Shown: one piece after another, positions 52,037 through 60,829 of the stretch
How positions within the stretch are numbered: position 1 is the first letter of the stretch
Layout of the letters: each line of letters begins with the position of its first letter
Origin: Pseudanabaena sp.
Lineage (GTDB): Bacteria > Cyanobacteriota > Cyanobacteriia > Pseudanabaenales > Pseudanabaenaceae
DNA length: 64,000 nucleotides
NCBI GenBank assembly: GCA_003249035.1
Contig: QBMK01000002.1
Coordinates: forward strand, 347,457 to 411,456
Direction: 5' to 3'
The notes under the pieces: generated by a model
Database searches by the model: none
What the model saw: only the letters and a program-made list of their open reading frames with translations
Told to the model about the DNA's origin: nothing
Made by a program: the position numbers and the translations under genes

Positions 52037-52079
52037 AGATAGAAAAGGAGTGTCGCAACGCGACATTCCTTTTCTATCT
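52037..52079. terminator. 20-bp palindrome at the end of der
   Basis: Arms 52037-52056 and 52060-52079 with a three-base loop and a single G-U pair, overlapping the der stop codon. It is A-rich on one side and T-rich on the other, so it may stop the der transcript (minus strand). Confidence 0.75.
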
Positions 52080-53432
52080 GAGAGCAGAGTTTTTCGACTT
52101 TTCGACTTCGCGATCTTTTTTGCCGCGCCAGATAAATCGTAGCGGAGTACCTTCAAAGCCTAGGGTTTTGCGAAACTGATTTTCGATGAAACGTTTGTAA
52201 TTATCGTTAAAACGATGCGGATCGTTGACGAAGAGAATCACTGTCGGGGGACTATCAGAAATTTGAGTGCAGTAATAGACTTTGCCCTGCTTACCGCCGC
52301 GACTCGTTGGCGGAGCATGCCACGTAACGGCTTCATTGAGCGCTTCATTTAAAATTGCCGTAGGAACGCGACGTTTGTGTTGCTCGGCTGCAGTATCTAC
52401 GCGCTCAAGAATTTGCTCAACTCTCTGACCTGTGACCGCACTCACAAAGATAATCGGCGCATATTCCACAAACATCAGTCTACTCTTCACATCGGCGGTG
52501 TAGTCGTAAATTGTGTAAGAATCTTTTTCAATCGCATCCCATTTATTGACCACGATTACGCAAGCTTTGCCTTCGTCATTAATCCGCCCTGCAAGTTTTT
52601 GATCTTGATCGGTAACACCATCAAGAGCATCGATTACAAGCAAAACCACATCAGAGCGACCAATCGCTTTAAAAGCGCGGTTGATGCTAAAAAACTCAAT
52701 GCCGTAATCAATATTCTTTTTCCGACGTACACCCGCAGTATCAATCAAGCGATATTTCTTGCCATTGCGTTCGACCGACATATCGATCGCATCGCGGGTC
52801 GTACCAGATATTGGGCTAACAATGCTGCGGTTCTCGCCAATAAATGCATTCAGTAAGCTGGATTTACCGACATTGGGACGACCAATAATCGCTACTTTGA
52901 TTTCGTCGCTTTCCTTAACTACTTCTTCGGGCGGGGGTAAATGCTTAACTAACTCGTCTAATAATTCGCCAGTACCGTTTCCATGAATCCCTGACATTGG
53001 AATTGGCTCACCTAATCCCAAGTTCCAAAATTCTGCTGCAAGTGACAGCCCAAATTTGGAGCCTTCGCATTTGTTTACGGCTAGTAACACTGGAATATTC
53101 TGACGCCGCAACCAGCCACCTAGTTGCTCATCAGCATCGGTGATTCCTGCCATACCATCTACAACAAAAATTACTGCAGCCGATTCACGAATGGCAATCT
53201 CCGCCTGTTCGCGAATCATGGGTAAAAATTCAGTTTCGTCGTCAAATACCAATCCACCTGTATCAACAACTTGAAACTCATGTGCGCCCCAAAAACATTC
53301 GCGATAGACGCGATCGCGGGTTACACCAGGTTGATCGAAGACGATCGCATATTGCTCACCTGACAAACGGTTTACGAGCGTAGATTTGCCCACATTGGGG
53401 CGACCGACAACGGCAACAATCGGTAACGACAT
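52074..53432 (-). CDS. der: GTPase Der
   Basis: About 452 residues from ATG 53432; the frame is open 10 codons further. Two tandem GTPase domains are clear: [18 protein letters not shown], then the second P-loop [18 protein letters not shown]; both G3 (DTGG, DTAG) and G4 (NKCE, NKWD) motifs are present. A KH-like C-terminal domain follows. It is an essential 50S ribosome assembly GTPase. A hairpin overlaps its stop codon. Confidence 0.95.
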
Positions 53433-53769
53433 AGCTTTACATTTTTGGAATTCCGAACTCACTACAATAACGTTAAATTACTGCGATAGTCAATACATTT
53501 CTTTTTTGCAATTTCAATTTAAAAAATCAAAGAAGAATATTTAATAACCAAAACCTAAAACTAATATGAATCGACAAAGACTTTGACATCGGTCTAATTC
53601 ACTGTGGCTTTGAGTAGATTTTTGCGTTCTTGATTGGAAAGTTGATGAGATTGTATCAATGTTCTATCTACTAAATGCGATCGCTATTACTGCGATTAAT
53701 GATTTCTAAGCGGATCGCCGCACAATATCTTTGAACGAAACAGATATTTCTAACGGGTGTATTGCTTCT

Positions 53770-53906
53770 GTATAACGGCTGCGTTCATCGGCGCTGAAAC
53801 TATGTAATGCATTTTAACCACAACAGCTTAATTGAGCGGATAAAAGCATAATATTTTGCTCTCAAACAAATATTACGCTTTTGTCTGTTCCAATGATCTG
53901 TCATAC
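53770..53906. repeat. attC-like imperfect palindrome (137 bp)
   Basis: Ends GTATAAC (53770-53776) and GTCATAC (53900-53906) are inverse partial complements, like the R'' and R' boxes of integron attC sites. The interior folds as a hairpin (AAAAGC..TAATATT arms, 53844-53884). The outer flank 53751-53776 (TAACGGGTGTATTGCTTC then TATAACG) is repeated at 55994-56019 beside the other palindrome. No integrase of the IntI type is in the window, so this is an inference. Confidence 0.5.
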
Positions 53907-53909
53907 TCC

Positions 53910-53936
53910 GATCGCATACCAATTCCTCAACTTTGC
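53910..53936. repeat. Dispersed copy of the 79-bp repeat core
   Basis: CGATCGCATACCAATTCCT and the CAACTTTGCG that follows match the core of the tandem units at 55649-55945. It lies 3' of the methyltransferase gene. Confidence 0.6.
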
Positions 53937-53994
53937 GGCGGGACGCATCCTTAAAGGATTCGCTAATTACTTCACCAAACTCAACAACATTAAA

Positions 53995-54585
53995 TTAAAG
54001 CTTTTGCCAGATCAATGAGTAACGCCAGAATATATGTCTTTGGAGGCGACAACCAGGAATTAAAGTATTTGCCATTACCTTGATTTCCTTGAGTGACAAC
54101 TGAGCAGGACGTAATGGAGCAACTTTTCTTGGCATTACAGTTGATGCATGATGCCAGCTTGAATAAAAGAGATTGAAAGGAATTGAGATGAGGCTATACA
54201 TATAATCCAAAATCGTCCGCTCTCGGTAAAGCCCAAGAATGATTAGCTTACCAGATGGTCGAAGAAGTCTCTTTATCTTTTTTAAGGCTACTTCCAAATC
54301 CATGTGGTGCAATGAAGCAATAGAGACGATCGCGTCGTAGGAGTCTTTGGGTAAGTCAGCTTCAAGAAAGTCAGCGTGTTGATAAAAAATATTGGAGGCA
54401 CTATGCTGGGTTGATGCCTCTTTTAGAATTGCTGCATCTGCATCTAGAGCATCGACGATCTCCGCTCTTTCCGCAAGTTTCAATGCAAGAAGTCCAAGTC
54501 CGCAACCTATATCTAATGCACGCTCGATCTTGCTTGGAAACTGGCACAGCAGATAATTATGGAAATGAGAATTGTGATCCCACAT
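53995..54585 (-). CDS. Class I SAM-dependent methyltransferase
   Basis: The protein has 196 residues. The start is YLLCQFPSKIERALDIGCGLGLLALKL (motif I with SAM-binding Gly), then VDALDADAAIL and YDAIVSIASLHHMDLE. The C-terminal half is basic and helical. It is the small orphan type often carried on gene cassettes and islands. The substrate is unknown. Base composition is similar to its neighbours. Confidence 0.85.
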   Translation of the reverse strand: MWDHNSHFHNYLLCQFPSKIERALDIGCGLGLLALKLAERAEIVDALDADAAILKEASTQHSASNIFYQHADFLEADLPKDSYDAIVSIASLHHMDLEVALKKIKRLLRPSGKLIILGLYRERTILDYMYSLISIPFNLFYSSWHHASTVMPRKVAPLRPAQLSLKEIKVMANTLIPGCRLQRHIFWRYSLIWQKL

Positions 54586-54729
54586 TTTTCGAGAAAGAAC
54601 TAAGTCTTAACAGATGTTGTAAAGAAATTGCAGTTTGTTTACCTTTTCAAAGGCAAATTACCGCAGACAGATAATTAAGTCAAGTGCGATCGCCTCAATT
54701 ATTTATCTGCTAAAAGGGTTGCTATAAGC

Positions 54730-54766
54730 GATCGCAGTATCAATTCCTTAACTTTGCGATCGCCAA
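54730..54766. repeat. Second dispersed copy of the repeat core
   Basis: GATCGCAGTATCAATTCCTT and the AACTTTGCGATCGCCAA that follows match the tandem-repeat core. It lies just beyond the stop of the nucleotidyltransferase pair. Confidence 0.65.
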
Positions 54767-54776
54767 CTCTAGTTCA

Positions 54777-55061
54777 TTAATATTTGAATTTTAGTTCAAG
54801 AGCTGCACAAAAGCTGTTGAGGCTATTTAACAAGGCATTGTAGTAAGCATAAGCGTCATCACGTTCGTTCTGAAGGTGGGCATACAATGCTAGTTCTGGT
54901 TCTGATACTAGGGTCACTTTTGGAATGTCTAAGCCTGCTGCGTTTAAGCGTATGGATGCGATCGCGATTAATAGTGACCCGATGGTATTATTTTTGCCTT
55001 GGTAAAGATCTTCCAGTCCAAGTATGATTAAGTCCGATCCTGGTAATTCGTTTAGTTCCAT
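54777..55061 (-). CDS. Hypothetical partner of the nucleotidyltransferase
   Basis: The protein has 94 residues: LPGSDLIILGLEDLYQGKNN then a long helical stretch ending SFCAALELKFKY. Its start codon overlaps the stop of the nucleotidyltransferase gene (TAATG), a hallmark of translational coupling, as in toxin-antitoxin pairs. No HEPN motif is visible. It could be the cognate protein of the nucleotidyltransferase. Confidence 0.6.
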   Translation of the reverse strand: MELNELPGSDLIILGLEDLYQGKNNTIGSLLIAIASIRLNAAGLDIPKVTLVSEPELALYAHLQNERDDAYAYYNALLNSLNSFCAALELKFKY

Positions 55062-55609
55062 TATTTTTCTCTCTCTGATGTACTTTCACAATGTTCAATG
55101 AATTTTTTAACCCTATTTCTCAGGATTTCAGGATTAAGAGAAGGAAATCGGATCAATTCAGGTGCGATCGCTTCAAAGCAATCTCGTAATTTTTCTAAAG
55201 AAAATAACTTCTGTTCATACATGGCTTTAACATCGTCAATGTCGCGGTTATATCCTCTAGATATTTTAGCAAGGGCTTGGGCTGTGAAGTCATAATGATA
55301 AAATGAGATTTCACCGTATTTTCCAATAAAGATGCTTCTGTCACGCCATTCTGGAAGTGGCGGCAAGAAGTCCTGTGGGGAAGCTAGCTCAATATTGATG
55401 TCCAGTTCTTGTTTGAGTTTAGCGATCGCTTGAAAAATCCCTAGTGGTTCAGGATCTAGACGAATATCGATATCTACTGTAGAACTACGCCAACCAATGA
55501 GTAAAGCGCTAGCGCCACCCGTAAAGTAGATAGAGCCAGAACCACGGGCTTCTCTACCTAAGGCTTTCATGAGTTGTTCGATTTTCTGAGGATCGACATT
55601 TGAGCGCAT
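55061..55609 (-). CDS. DUF6036-like nucleotidyltransferase domain protein
   Basis: The protein has 182 residues. The nucleotidyltransferase core has GSIYFTGGASALLIGWRSST and STVDIDIRLD, the GG...D.D pattern of AbiEii/DUF6036-type enzymes, and a C-terminal helical part (RIDDVKAMYEQKLFS-like region). Such enzymes add nucleotides to tRNAs or proteins in toxin-antitoxin and abortive infection systems. The coupled downstream gene may be its partner. It starts close to the tandem repeat array. Confidence 0.75.
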   Translation of the reverse strand: MRSNVDPQKIEQLMKALGREARGSGSIYFTGGASALLIGWRSSTVDIDIRLDPEPLGIFQAIAKLKQELDINIELASPQDFLPPLPEWRDRSIFIGKYGEISFYHYDFTAQALAKISRGYNRDIDDVKAMYEQKLFSLEKLRDCFEAIAPELIRFPSLNPEILRNRVKKFIEHCESTSEREK

Positions 55610-55648
55610 AATTTGACATCAGTTCAAGTGAGCTTCTCTAATTTAGCA

Positions 55649-55945
55649 GATCGCCTATCAATTCCTCAACATTGCGATCGCCAATAACTTCTCGAAACCC
55701 AACAACCAAGTAGATTCGTTATACCCCGATCGCCTATCAATTTCCTAACATTGCGATCGCCAATAATTCCTCGAATCTCAATAACCAAGTAGATTTGTCA
55801 TACCCCGATCGCCTATCAATTCCTTACTCTAAGCGATCACCAACAACTTCTCGAAACTCAACAACGAGATAGATTTGTTATGCACTGATCGCGTATCAAT
55901 TACTTAACTTTGCGATCGCCAATAACTTCTCCGAACTAAATAACA
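55649..55945. repeat. Tandem array of four ~79-bp units
   Basis: Units start at 55649, 55728, 55807 and 55887, i.e. periods of 79, 79 and 80 bp. Each has a HIP1-like core (GATCGCCTATCAATT, then GCGATCGCCAA) and a hairpin-prone part with CTTCTCGAAAC, which in the third unit pairs with CGAGA. Single copies of the core lie at 53910 and 54730. The copies are diverged, so the array is old. It is not CRISPR: no conserved repeat with variable spacers. Confidence 0.8.
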
Positions 55946-56012
55946 AAGAGAATCATTTTTAAATACTTAGTTTTGGCAAGAAATAGATCACTTTAACGGG
56001 GGTATTGCTTCG

Positions 56013-56093
56013 ATATAACGACTAAGATAAGAGGTAGCAGACAACTTTTACAACTACCATCTCTCAACTGTCCGCTTCATCGACTTGTTATAC
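56013..56093. repeat. attC-like imperfect palindrome (81 bp)
   Basis: Ends ATATAAC (56013-56019) and GTTATAC (56087-56093) match RYYYAAC/GTTRRRY-type boxes only loosely. On the minus strand it reads TATAACAAGTCGATGAAGCG onward with GGACA, and the far arm has TGTC-TGCTACCTC with AGTCGTTA. The inner stem AGAGGTAG/CTACC pairs as well. Layout (two simple boxes, a GAAGCGGAC-like arm, imperfect stem) is that of integron attC sites. It lies 17 bases past the end of the ATPase gene. Confidence 0.55.
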
Positions 56094-56110
56094 CGTGATA
56101 TTTACAATTA

Positions 56111-59046
56111 CTACAAGCCGTGGAAGTCTCTCAAGATTTTCTTGATAATTACCTCTAGATCAGGCTTTACAATATCGTTTGCAATGAGGTTTTTAGCAGC
56201 ATCTTTGAAGTTTTGGGCAACAATAAAGCCATCTCCACCACCAGCCTTCTCAGCACGTTTCTCCAACAAACCCTCTAAAGTTAAAAATCTTAGATAATCT
56301 TCTAAAGGAATATGCCCTTTAATTGAAGCCATTCTATAGATACTTTCTGATTTCCATGAGAAACTGCCAGAGCGATAACCAACCTTCAAAATTCTGTAAA
56401 GGTTAGTGCGAACTTGCTTAGAAAGATTTCCAGCAGAGCTTAAGCTGTCGTCAAAAGCCTTTCTTAACTCTTCATTAAGATTACATGTAGAATCAAAAAG
56501 CATAGAATTAAGAGTGGCACTGAATTGTGGATCTATTCCCTTAAAAGTTGAATAATAAAATACAGGAACATCAGAGGGAAACTCACATTTCTCAAAATCA
56601 TGATATTCCTCAAACCATCCCTCATACACTTGAATTGTATGGAAATTTAACGGGAAAAATTGTCCAAATACACACAAGTGACTTAACTTATTAGATCCAA
56701 ATAATCTAATAAGATCATTTGAGTAATCACTTTTGCTCTTTCTATTGTTGTCTGAAAGAACAAGGTATAACAGCCCCCAAAAATAGATTTTCGGGTACAA
56801 ACTAGCTTCTTATTGGGAGCATTAAAATCCTTTATAAGCTTCTGTAGAATATGTCCACCATGCTCAATGTAATTTATTTGAGCGATGCTTTTCATATTAA
56901 TTAATTCTTCCAATAATAATGAGGAGCCATCATAAATCTCAGCCAATAACCTCTTCAAATCTTCGCTAAGAGATTCTTTTATAAAGTTCGACAGAACAAA
57001 TCTAACTTTTGTCCACAGTTCTACAAAGTCGTACTTAATCTTAAACGCATTTCGACTTCTATCGAAGGAAAGAAGTGGACTTATATAAAACTGTGAGTAT
57101 CTATCTGAGTCAAGGTTGGAAGTAGGCTCTATCGACGGAAAAAATATTTGAATATACTCATTTAAATCTTTTTTTGAAATTTCACCTTGATTTCTAACAG
57201 AAATTTCAACTATTAATTCAAAGTAGTCATCACAAGTAATTTCTAGAGATTGCTTTCCAATCTCTCTTTGTAGAAGCTTGTAGATTAAGTTGTCTAGTGT
57301 TGAATTGGAATAGTAATAGTTACTTTCTAATATTTCAGGAAGAGCAATCTTGTCATACTCCTCTCGGTCTACTAAATCACATATCAGAGAAATATAAATT
57401 GGAGTATGGCGAGATTCGTCGGTAATATCAAAATTTAACAAATATTTTTTAGCATCTTTAACTCTTTGCTTAGAAAGCCTCTTGGTTAGATACTCACTAA
57501 CCAACTCATCACTAAATCCTAAAAGAGCAAATACGGTTACAGAGTCTTTCTGTATATATTTATCAAGGTAATAGTCTCTCGAAGTTATTATTATGGAGCA
57601 ACTTTTATATGCTTCATTCAACGAGATTGCAGACTGAATAAATGAATCCAAATCAAACTTTTCTTTTAGTATAGATTCTATTTCATCTAAACCATCAACA
57701 ATTAAAACTAGATTCCCGCAGCTAATATTGATCTCAAAGTTGTTGTACTCCAATGCTTCACTAGCATCTATTTCATTAACCTTCACAAACAACCGATACA
57801 AATCAGTTAGACTCTAAATCGTAAAATCAGCATTTGCATTGCGTAAATCAGTTGAAGAAATAAGTAAAGCTCTCTTTTTATCAAGTCCATTAACTAACCT
57901 TACTACTTGCTCGCAAAAAGTGGTTTTGCCTACTCCTGCACGCCCTACAATTATGTTGACTGGTCTTTGCTTTTCGGGAGAACTAATAAGCTGCTTAACA
58001 TGCTGAAGACTAGGTTGTAAACCTATTTGCTGATCATCCTCAAGTTGAAAGAGTTCCTGATCGACAAAATACTGCTCACTATCTAAGTTTAAATCAAGTA
58101 ATCTGGCATATCCCGACAAACAGTATTTCCAAATAAAATCATCAATATAGAAATATTCTGTTATCTTGGACAAGTTTTTGTCAGCTATCTCCTCAAACTT
58201 GTCTTGTAAGTTAGCTATTCTATTGATTTCCCTCCCATTATCAGGATTTACGACTCTTGGAGAGCATATTGTTAGACTTGCTAGATTGAGTGTCAAGCCA
58301 TCAATAAATTGCTGAAGAGTCACACTCATTGAAATATTCTTTTTAACAAAAACATAGCCTATTAAAAGACTACTACTAACCTCAACTGTCACAAATTCAT
58401 AGCTAATTCTTTTTTGAGTATCGTCAACTTTTTCTTGTAAAACAACTTTTTGCTTTGGATAATAAATTTTTACAATATCTAAACCTCTAACATCTTCATA
58501 GGATCTTGTCTCTTTATTTGTATCAACATAGCTAGATTCTATCTCACTAATGTACGGAAGTATCCGTTGAGGAACAGGCTCTTTTATATATTCTCTATAG
58601 AACCAAGAAATAAGTCTTACTAAAACAACTTTTGTGATTTTTACATCTTCTAAATTACTCGAATCATTCGGGCTGTCAGTATCATGAGAAGCAGGATTTC
58701 CATGGCTTCTAATTATTCCTAAATAGTATTTTATTTTATTCCTTAAAGACTTATTTTTAACGACAACATAGTCCTCATCTTGTTCATGAGTTACAACTTC
58801 TATTAGCCCAAAAAGTTCAAGTTTGTTTCGATATCTTGGGTTTATAAGAGTACCGTTTGCTTTTTCTTGCCCCTCTATAATCTTGCTTCCTTTTACTTCA
58901 TCGTAGTGATGCAATATAACTGCTTTGCATAAAGCTTCACCCGCTTTTCTTGAGTTGTTCAGGATATCTTCTACAACCGTGTCTTCAAACGCTTGCAGAA
59001 CCCATTTGTTTAATTCCTTGATTTTTTCCGATTTTTGAATAGTCAT
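56111..59046 (-). pseudogene. DUF4145-NACHT STAND ATPase (candidate defence gene), broken by amber and frameshift
   Basis: Three fragments belong to one gene of about 978 codons. 57814-59046 has an N-terminal DUF4145-like domain (about 1-155, with IRSHGNPASHD) and Walker A GRAGVGKTTFCEQVV. 56683-57801 has Walker B VLIVDGLDE and SCSIIITSRD in the same frame, separated by TAG (57814-57816). 56111-56800 continues in another frame; the break lies near 56770-56805 where LYLVLSD follows YFWGL. NACHT STAND ATPases sense invaders and trigger defence by effector domains. The frame breaks suggest inactivation, or one nonsense codon plus one indel in the assembly. No HIP1 site is seen in it. Confidence 0.78.
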
Positions 59047-59317
59047 GTGCCTGTATTTCTATAGCAAAAGCCTGCTTCTAATCCAGTTCTGGGTGTAAAT
59101 AATCTTCTAGTATGCCTCAATCAGAGGCTAATCTGTATAAATCAGTACAAATACTCATATATATGACAAGCCTAGCATAAATTGTCATATATAGTAACCA
59201 ATGAGCGTAATAACAAGATTTTTGCAGATTAGTGTACCTAAATATACTTTTATTTAGCAAAATGAAAACTCGTAGATTGCTTTTAGCGAATCTTGCCAAC
59301 TCATACAAAGATCGATC

Positions 59318-59908
59318 TTATTTAGCAGCTTTTGGATAGAGCCACTTAGCAAAGAGCTTGGTAACTCTTGGCATGATAATGTAAGTCATCGCAAATACCA
59401 TCAGCCCTGAAACCAGCAAAGTCGCTAGAGGCGGTGGCAAAAAAGAGAGGTTCGGGATTACCAATCTATTCATGAAATTTATTAGGATAAAGATAATTCC
59501 CCAAGTGAGAAGGAACATCTTATAGCGCGGCGGCGGTAAGATCGCCTTGTTGGTGGATAGAGTAAACCAAGTTTCCAATCCAGTGAGAACCTGAAGTTTG
59601 CTTTCATCTACAAGCAATCGATTGAGCTTGGCAAGATAACCTTTGCGAATTTCCGAACTTTCCCACAACCGATAATTACTAAGGCGATCGAATTTGAATA
59701 CAATCCGATACTGAAGATTCGATGTGTCATCTGGGCGAAAGACATTCACTCCCAGATGACCGTCAAACATTTCGGCAGCAGAAATCATTTCTGTTAAGAT
59801 TCCCTCAAATTCCTGCTCACAAGAAGGCTTAACATTGAGAGCAACATCAACGGTTACGGGAGTATCATCTGATTCCATGCGATCGCTTTGATTCATTTGT
59901 TTCATCAT
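59318..59908 (-). CDS. Antibiotic biosynthesis monooxygenase-domain protein, membrane-anchored
   Basis: The protein has 196 residues. An ABM domain (about 15-105, VNVFRPDDTSNLQYRIVFKF, YRLWESSEIR) is followed by two membrane helices (about 125-150 and 155-180). The domain binds small aromatic compounds or acts as a cofactor-free oxygenase; the anchor suggests membrane location. Alone between the ATPase remnant region and an SMP-30-like gene. Confidence 0.75.
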   Translation of the reverse strand: MMKQMNQSDRMESDDTPVTVDVALNVKPSCEQEFEGILTEMISAAEMFDGHLGVNVFRPDDTSNLQYRIVFKFDRLSNYRLWESSEIRKGYLAKLNRLLVDESKLQVLTGLETWFTLSTNKAILPPPRYKMFLLTWGIIFILINFMNRLVIPNLSFLPPPLATLLVSGLMVFAMTYIIMPRVTKLFAKWLYPKAAK

Positions 59909-59924
59909 TAGTGATTAGCAAGAT

Positions 59925-60812
59925 TTAAACCAATGGCAGTCCCGCAATACCAACCTCAAGCCTTACCACCTTTCCCGATTCAACCCCAGTAGCAGGAGGA
60001 AAAGACATGCCGCCGTTGGTGGTGACATAGATGCTAGTGCGATCGCCTTCAGATGTGCCGAAAGCTAAAGCCGTGCTACCTGCCATGCCCTGCTCTAGTT
60101 GAGCAATGGTAGTGACAGTACCATCTTGAGCGATTTTCACTACACTATTAAAAACATGAGTAGTACCGTAGAGATTCCCTTCGATATCAAAGGCAAAGTC
60201 ATCAATATTAACTCCAGTGAGAAAGATCTCTGGTTCTCCTGCCAAGCCATCAGCGAGAATGGGAATCTTCACAATCTGCTTCTTTTGAGTATTGGAAGCA
60301 TAGAGAAAATCATTGTAAATTTTTAAACCATTCACCGCAGGAGTAACTTCTTCGGGAGAAGTACGCGCAAGATCGGCATGTTCTAGCCAAATGCTAACGG
60401 TTTTCGTTGGCACGTTCAATTTCCAGATTGCGCCGCGATAGGAATCAGCAATTAAGTAGCGATCGCCATCTAATCGAGTCAATCCATTCAAAAATATTGC
60501 TTCAGTCAATTCCGTCAAAAGTTCAACCGTTCCATCGCTAGCAATGAGCCATATTACAGAAGTATCCTTCTCGTTCCAACCTGACAGAAGCAGTTCTCCA
60601 TTTGGTGTCAATGCCAATCCAGTTGCTTTGCCTGCGATCGCTGCATGGGTTGCGACAACTCCATCCGCACCGATGCGAAAGACCTTTCCTTCGTAATGAC
60701 TTGTGATGAATAAAGTATTATCCGCATCGACAACAATGCTCTCTAGAAATGTATTGACAGGAAATTCGGCGATCGCTTGGGCGGGTACTAAGTCAGTTAA
60801 CGTTTCGATCAT
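59925..60812 (-). CDS. SMP-30/gluconolactonase-like beta-propeller protein
   Basis: The protein has 295 residues in several repeated strands (TLFITSHYEGKVFRIGADG, ATGLALTPNGELLLSGW, YLIADSYRGAIWKL, YGTTHVFNSVVKI), the six-bladed propeller of SMP-30/lactonase-like proteins. It is 17 bases upstream of the ABM-domain gene and 18 bases downstream of the SDR gene, so likely in one transcript. The substrate may be a sugar lactone; not proven. Confidence 0.72.
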   Translation of the reverse strand: MIETLTDLVPAQAIAEFPVNTFLESIVVDADNTLFITSHYEGKVFRIGADGVVATHAAIAGKATGLALTPNGELLLSGWNEKDTSVIWLIASDGTVELLTELTEAIFLNGLTRLDGDRYLIADSYRGAIWKLNVPTKTVSIWLEHADLARTSPEEVTPAVNGLKIYNDFLYASNTQKKQIVKIPILADGLAGEPEIFLTGVNIDDFAFDIEGNLYGTTHVFNSVVKIAQDGTVTTIAQLEQGMAGSTALAFGTSEGDRTSIYVTTNGGMSFPPATGVESGKVVRLEVGIAGLPLV

Positions 60813-60829
60813 GATTTTTTAGCTGCGGT

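Follow-up and report, generated by a model that had tools for sequence, protein, structure and literature searches.

The segment at positions 53738-59046 is, we are confident, a small decaying cluster of integron cassettes without an integrase of its own (CALIN) in a Pseudanabaena chromosome. The window, by which we mean the whole 64 kb stretch of DNA that was analysed, covers positions 347457-411456 of contig C22 in a genome of 4.55 Mb and 60 contigs. CALIN and SALIN are established terms; the former comes from IntegronFinder and is defined in PMC12690207 as at least two attC sites within 4 kb with no intI nearby. The two attC sites of the window share their orientation and are separated by 2.1 kb, genes are present and intI is found on another contig; unlike in a typical CALIN, both sites are partly decayed and a complete integron exists elsewhere in the genome. 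A first-pass annotation had proposed an integron-type cassette region here, a proposal borne out by the recovery of both sites with a model built without window sequence. The cassettes read on the minus strand, and the region is arranged in the order broken NACHT gene, attC-A, gene-less cassette copies, nucleotidyltransferase pair, methyltransferase, attC-B and relics.

For detection of the attC sites we used a covariance model (R1) constructed from 17 attCs of other loci, located beside IntI genes in relatives or elsewhere in the same genome, which were aligned and combined with an imposed structure of a 7-bp R stem, a 9-bp L stem and one extrahelical base. No window sequence entered the model, in order to avoid circularity. 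Applied to the 64 kb window (E<=10), it returned exactly two matches, attC-A at 56013-56093 (53.8 bits, E=2.6e-12, exact ends) and the decayed attC-B at 53818-53906 (37.1 bits, E=1.1e-7), both on the minus strand, which corrects the first-pass annotation. That an independent model gives two matches with exact ends argues for the CALIN reading. The minus-strand sequence of attC-A is GTATAAC-AAGTC-GAT[G]AAGCGG-AC...CCTCTTATC-TTAGTC-GTTATAT, with intact R boxes (R'' GTATAAC, R' GTTATAT), the spacers AAGTC and TTAGTC, and an L-stem (GAT[G]AAGCGG / CCTCTTATC) with an extrahelical G and one mismatch. The corresponding sequence of attC-B is GTATGAC-AGATC-ATTGGAACAG...TCCGCTCAAT-TAAGCT-GTTGTGG; its boxes are R'' GTATGAC and R' GTTGTGG, and its L-stem is maintained via G-T pairs. 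The paired ends typical of attC (R''...AAC with R' GTT...) are thus complete in attC-A and retained in part only in attC-B. The other attC hallmark, L'' and L' boxes that pair around an unpaired central spacer with one base extrahelical, is seen in attC-A with one mismatch and in attC-B in the predicted fold. attC-B is 71% identical to attCs on two other contigs of this genome (C18, C59) and is, as far as sequence can tell, a copy, now decayed, of the CACATCATTGGAGCGGAC family present at C18:31509 and C59:85974.

The imperfect palindromes with GTTATAY/GTATRAC ends noticed in the first pass are present in the sequence, as are the attC-like arms TAACAAGTCGATGAAGCGGAC, which lie on the minus strand. 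Of the two proposed extents, 56013-56093 coincides with the model match, whereas for 53770-53906 the boundary at 53906 is kept and the other end moves to 53818. The GTTATAC at 53770-53776 is a real box but does not end attC-B; it probably forms the right end of another attC, mostly lost, of which the right half would remain at 53770-53800 (minus strand, GCGCCGATGAACGCAGCC GTTATAC) and which resembles the right end of the attC at L003 (GCGCGCCGCTGATTAGAACCGTTATAC). Fold predictions count in part against the CALIN reading: folded as a single strand, attC-A is no stabler than shuffled sequence (z-score +1.0), with a pfold of 0.49 for the R box and weak predicted L-stem pairing, and attC-B, predicted to fold well (z-score about -2) with its L-stem paired and the extrahelical base in place, has a damaged R box. 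Given the weak fold of the one and the damaged box of the other, both sites are probably impaired. An Rfam search over 53400-59400 gave no match.

Three genes lie between attC-A and attC-B, all on the minus strand: a class I SAM methyltransferase gene (53995-54585, PF08241), taken as a cassette gene, a DUF6036 nucleotidyltransferase gene (55061-55609, PF19502) and a 94-aa ORF (54777-55061) whose pairing with the nucleotidyltransferase gene is conserved in relatives. The first pass had placed a methyltransferase, a nucleotidyltransferase and an ATPase between the sites; the first two are indeed there, but the third is a broken NACHT-type NTPase gene outside, upstream of attC-A. This gene (56111-59046, minus strand) is the content of the cassette ending in attC-A and consists of three overlapping or adjoining frames (57814-59046, 56683-57801 and 56111-56800); its match to NACHT PF05729 (E=7e-6) is slightly below the Pfam cut-off, and it may be a dead defence gene. 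We could not place the 5' end of the NACHT cassette, which counts against the CALIN reading. Defence-system profiles gave a sole match, a weak generic one of the methyltransferase to mads_2. Across the 58 genomes searched, the methyltransferase gene and the first part of the NACHT gene occur in this genome only, and such private genes again speak for a CALIN. The nucleotidyltransferase gene is patchy (13/58 genomes) and is flanked by two attCs in a relative, G001 (L174; 71.7 and 67.4 bits); it is thus a cassette gene, a further reason for the CALIN reading. Beyond the other end of the cluster lies der (52074-53462), whose protein is 92-98% identical to Pseudanabaena records.

Much of the remaining sequence derives from one short gene-less cassette of about 216 bp. 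Using an nhmmer profile of its 138-base body, which includes no sequence from the window's genome, we found on the minus strand a full-length copy (model 1-138) at 55882-56019 (E=2.2e-28), a remnant (model 98-135) at 54728-54766 (E=0.0014) and a 3' half abutting attC-B at 53906-54007 (model 58-137, E=7e-6). Also on this strand, three tandem partial copies with a period of 79-80 bp occupy 55647-55873 (E=1e-10 to 1e-11) and comprise the 3' half of the cassette up to the R'' box, so that the 79-bp tandem repeats are, by their alignment to the profile, that half of the gene-less cassette. The reversed-sequence control gave no match to the profile. The full-length copy, running from 56019 to 55882, begins at the G of the attC-A R' box, just as short bodies begin in the array of a relative (G023, below), and this junction likewise favours the CALIN reading. 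A truncated start of a further short cassette (53738-53776, minus strand) agrees with the consensus at 27 of 39 positions, a score equalled by 1 of 2000 shuffles. It corresponds to one copy of the 27-base flank TAACGGG(T/G)GTATTGCTTC(T/G)(G/A)TATAACG that the first pass had reported at 53751-53777 and 55994-56020. The repeat is real (24 of 27 identical), and the profile matches together with the match of the flank to the body start identify it as the last seven attC bases (R') plus the start of the gene-less cassette. Searched alone in its own genome, the flank gave 36 matches as compared with 26 for a reversed-pattern control, mostly chance level, so that the whole cassette is required as the query.

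The first pass had noted that a distant or lost integrase would be needed. The integrase is distant but not lost: a search of the genome revealed a full-length IntI on C11 (72494-73435; TIGR02249, 454.6 bits, cut-off 265), which aligns over its full length to the solved structure of Vibrio IntI4 (2a3v), including the catalytic motifs and the integron-specific stretch. The attI upstream of it and its G023 counterpart can be aligned as far as the core GTTAGGC/GTTATGC, beyond which they diverge. An attC lies at C11:80785 according to the covariance model, and an attC-like site at C11:75434-75527 appeared in a pattern scan only, being missed by the model. The genome thus carries a complete integron: intI with its extra domain, attI and an attC array. 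The product of the first cassette after attI (L061:13869-15362) is a protein of 497 aa that has a PAP2 / vanadium-chloroperoxidase-like domain, and a 1037-aa ORF without Pfam match (L061:15584-18697) is apparently also a cassette gene, of unusual size. Genome-wide there are 19 attC matches at E<=1 (17 at 1e-4) on about a dozen contigs; C18, C59, C14 and the window carry small clusters, and the remainder are mostly single. These 19 matches, the full-length IntI and the attI conserved with G023 add to the case for a CALIN. The dispersal is no effect of assembly, because G023, a single contig, has attC matches near 1.0, 2.2, 3.44, 3.49-3.53 and 4.47 Mb; cassettes in Pseudanabaena are thus spread over the genome rather than confined to one array.

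Among the relatives, attC matches occur in 53 of 58 genomes, which also supports the CALIN reading; within Pseudanabaena they are found in 26 of 26 genomes, with IntI above the cut-off in 13 of these. The comparison of cassette content asked for in the first pass shows, besides the nucleotidyltransferase gene between two attCs in G001, other genes at the syntenic locus of G027, which belongs to another genus. There, synteny covers the genes 59303-60819 (88%), and the nucleotidyltransferase pair is kept (94%); the methyltransferase is absent from the locus, and a 394-aa gene, located between short-cassette remnants, replaces the broken NACHT gene. This difference in gene content at one locus also speaks for the CALIN reading. 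The IntI and attC counts in Pseudanabaena show that gene turnover in this cyanobacterial genus commonly draws on integrons; a search of the open-licence literature yielded no report of integron integrases in Pseudanabaena.

The gene-less cassette is amplified in G023, where a 217-bp unit with a body starting TTATGCCTAACCGATACGCTCATTAAAGTTGTCT occurs three times in tandem directly after attI, each copy ending in a CACATCATT(G/T)GAGCGGAC attC. In the main array of that genome (L147-L149, G023:C1:3487088-3533692), 60 attC matches over 46 kb accompany 30 short bodies, so that the cassette makes up half of all cassettes and is interspersed with gene cassettes. Of these bodies, 28 start at a detected attC and one more at attI; 29 of the 60 attCs are those of short cassettes. 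The cassette is present in 35 of 58 genomes, including 26 of 26 Pseudanabaena (E<=0.001), and also on Pseudanabaena plasmids; phage records gave no match. When the search was widened to 291 genomes of the class, its body turned up in 32, mainly of the host's family.

Most likely, the IntI encoded with its attI on the other contig would have inserted the cassettes here through recombination at G^TT of folded single-stranded attC sites. The gene-less cassette, common in the genus, was captured repeatedly between gene cassettes and thereby accounts for the shared flank as well as for the tandem repeats of 79 bp; the attC sites have degraded in the meantime. It is conceivable instead that the sites were never integron-derived and belong to a non-autonomous palindromic repeat, MITE- or REP-like, that merely resembles attC. 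The short element is indeed repeated and mostly gene-less on many contigs, and its tandem partial copies in the window resemble ordinary repeat slippage; however, the R boxes, the L boxes and the extrahelical base are all retained in its attC, it alternates with gene cassettes bearing unrelated attCs, and in G023 it starts at attI beside intI and at the R' of a large variety of gene-cassette attCs. Chiefly because of the attI junction we regard such an origin as highly improbable. Much closer to an even chance, though still short of it, is a scenario in which homologous recombination, or a rearrangement of the main array, brought the cluster here in one piece, in place of insertion by IntI at a chromosomal attG. 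Remnants of several cassettes share one orientation, the neighbourhood upstream of der differs in aligned relatives (in 19 of them neither synteny nor attC was found), and the same locus carries cassettes in another genus, G027, so the cluster is old. In addition, an unoccupied site was not found upstream of der in aligned relatives, which we count against the CALIN reading. Single insertions by IntI explain more easily the many single attCs elsewhere in this genome and in the one-contig G023. Loot et al. in 2024 (doi 10.1038/s41564-023-01548-y, cited in PMC12690207 and PMC12901181) reportedly described cassette insertion at attG sites (SALIN); the single scattered attCs of an IntI-bearing genome resemble this, but no unoccupied attG was identified in this analysis.

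Cyanobacterial attCs have been modelled previously (Cyanobacteria attC model, PMC8352920), and gene-less cassettes are known to carry promoters in Vibrio superintegrons (PMC11014356) and as ORF-less promoter cassettes from oral metagenomes (PMC6557892). The window feature is therefore a further, partly decayed member of kinds already known. It shares with the cyanobacterial chromosomal integrons (PMC8352920) attC-type sites with conserved boxes and IntI in the same genomes, but differs in that many attCs are dispersed and one relative's array consists by half of a single gene-less cassette. Like the Vibrio and oral cassettes (PMC11014356; PMC6557892), the latter is short, carries an attC and no obvious gene, and stands between gene cassettes; here, however, a single family recurs in every one of the 26 Pseudanabaena genomes searched, with about 30 copies in one array, and its promoter is only putative. 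In the open-licence literature we found no description of one amplified gene-less cassette that is shared by all 26 genomes of the genus searched here and accounts for half of an array with 60 attCs.

What keeps this cassette may be a promoter, or it may travel as a passenger. That it is retained because its promoter drives the next gene cassette seems to us plausible yet rather doubtful. In the G023 array 14 of the 31 other attCs directly precede a short cassette, gene-less Vibrio cassettes contain sense promoters (PMC11014356), and promoter-like hexamers recur in each copy; these matches are weak (9/12), such promoters are not identifiable in silico according to the same study, and passive amplification accounts for the pattern equally well. 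More broadly, we tentatively propose, at somewhat less than even confidence, that the cassette behaves across the genus as a mobile repeat, which IntI inserts at attI, attC and probably other sites, which has been amplified to half an array and which is possibly kept because its neighbours gain from it a promoter (or else a conserved antisense peptide tail). It would then represent a natural system in which selected portable promoters can be set against spreading minimal selfish cassettes. No intact reading frame is conserved across all copies, and an antisense small protein (..IANNFSELNNEANHF..) was not accepted, as stops break its frame in many copies. In the antisense frame third positions are more variable (p about 0.02) and a 21-nt insertion in 22 copies preserves the frame; the conserved part, ..FA[AGRILKG]IANNFSELNNEANHFCLPNLG and a stop (e.g. 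L064:5339-5476), has stops upstream in many copies. In a genome of another cyanobacterial family, 43 bases (G276:C253:26957-26999) match the start of the gene-less cassette at 98% identity, which suggests a recent transfer.
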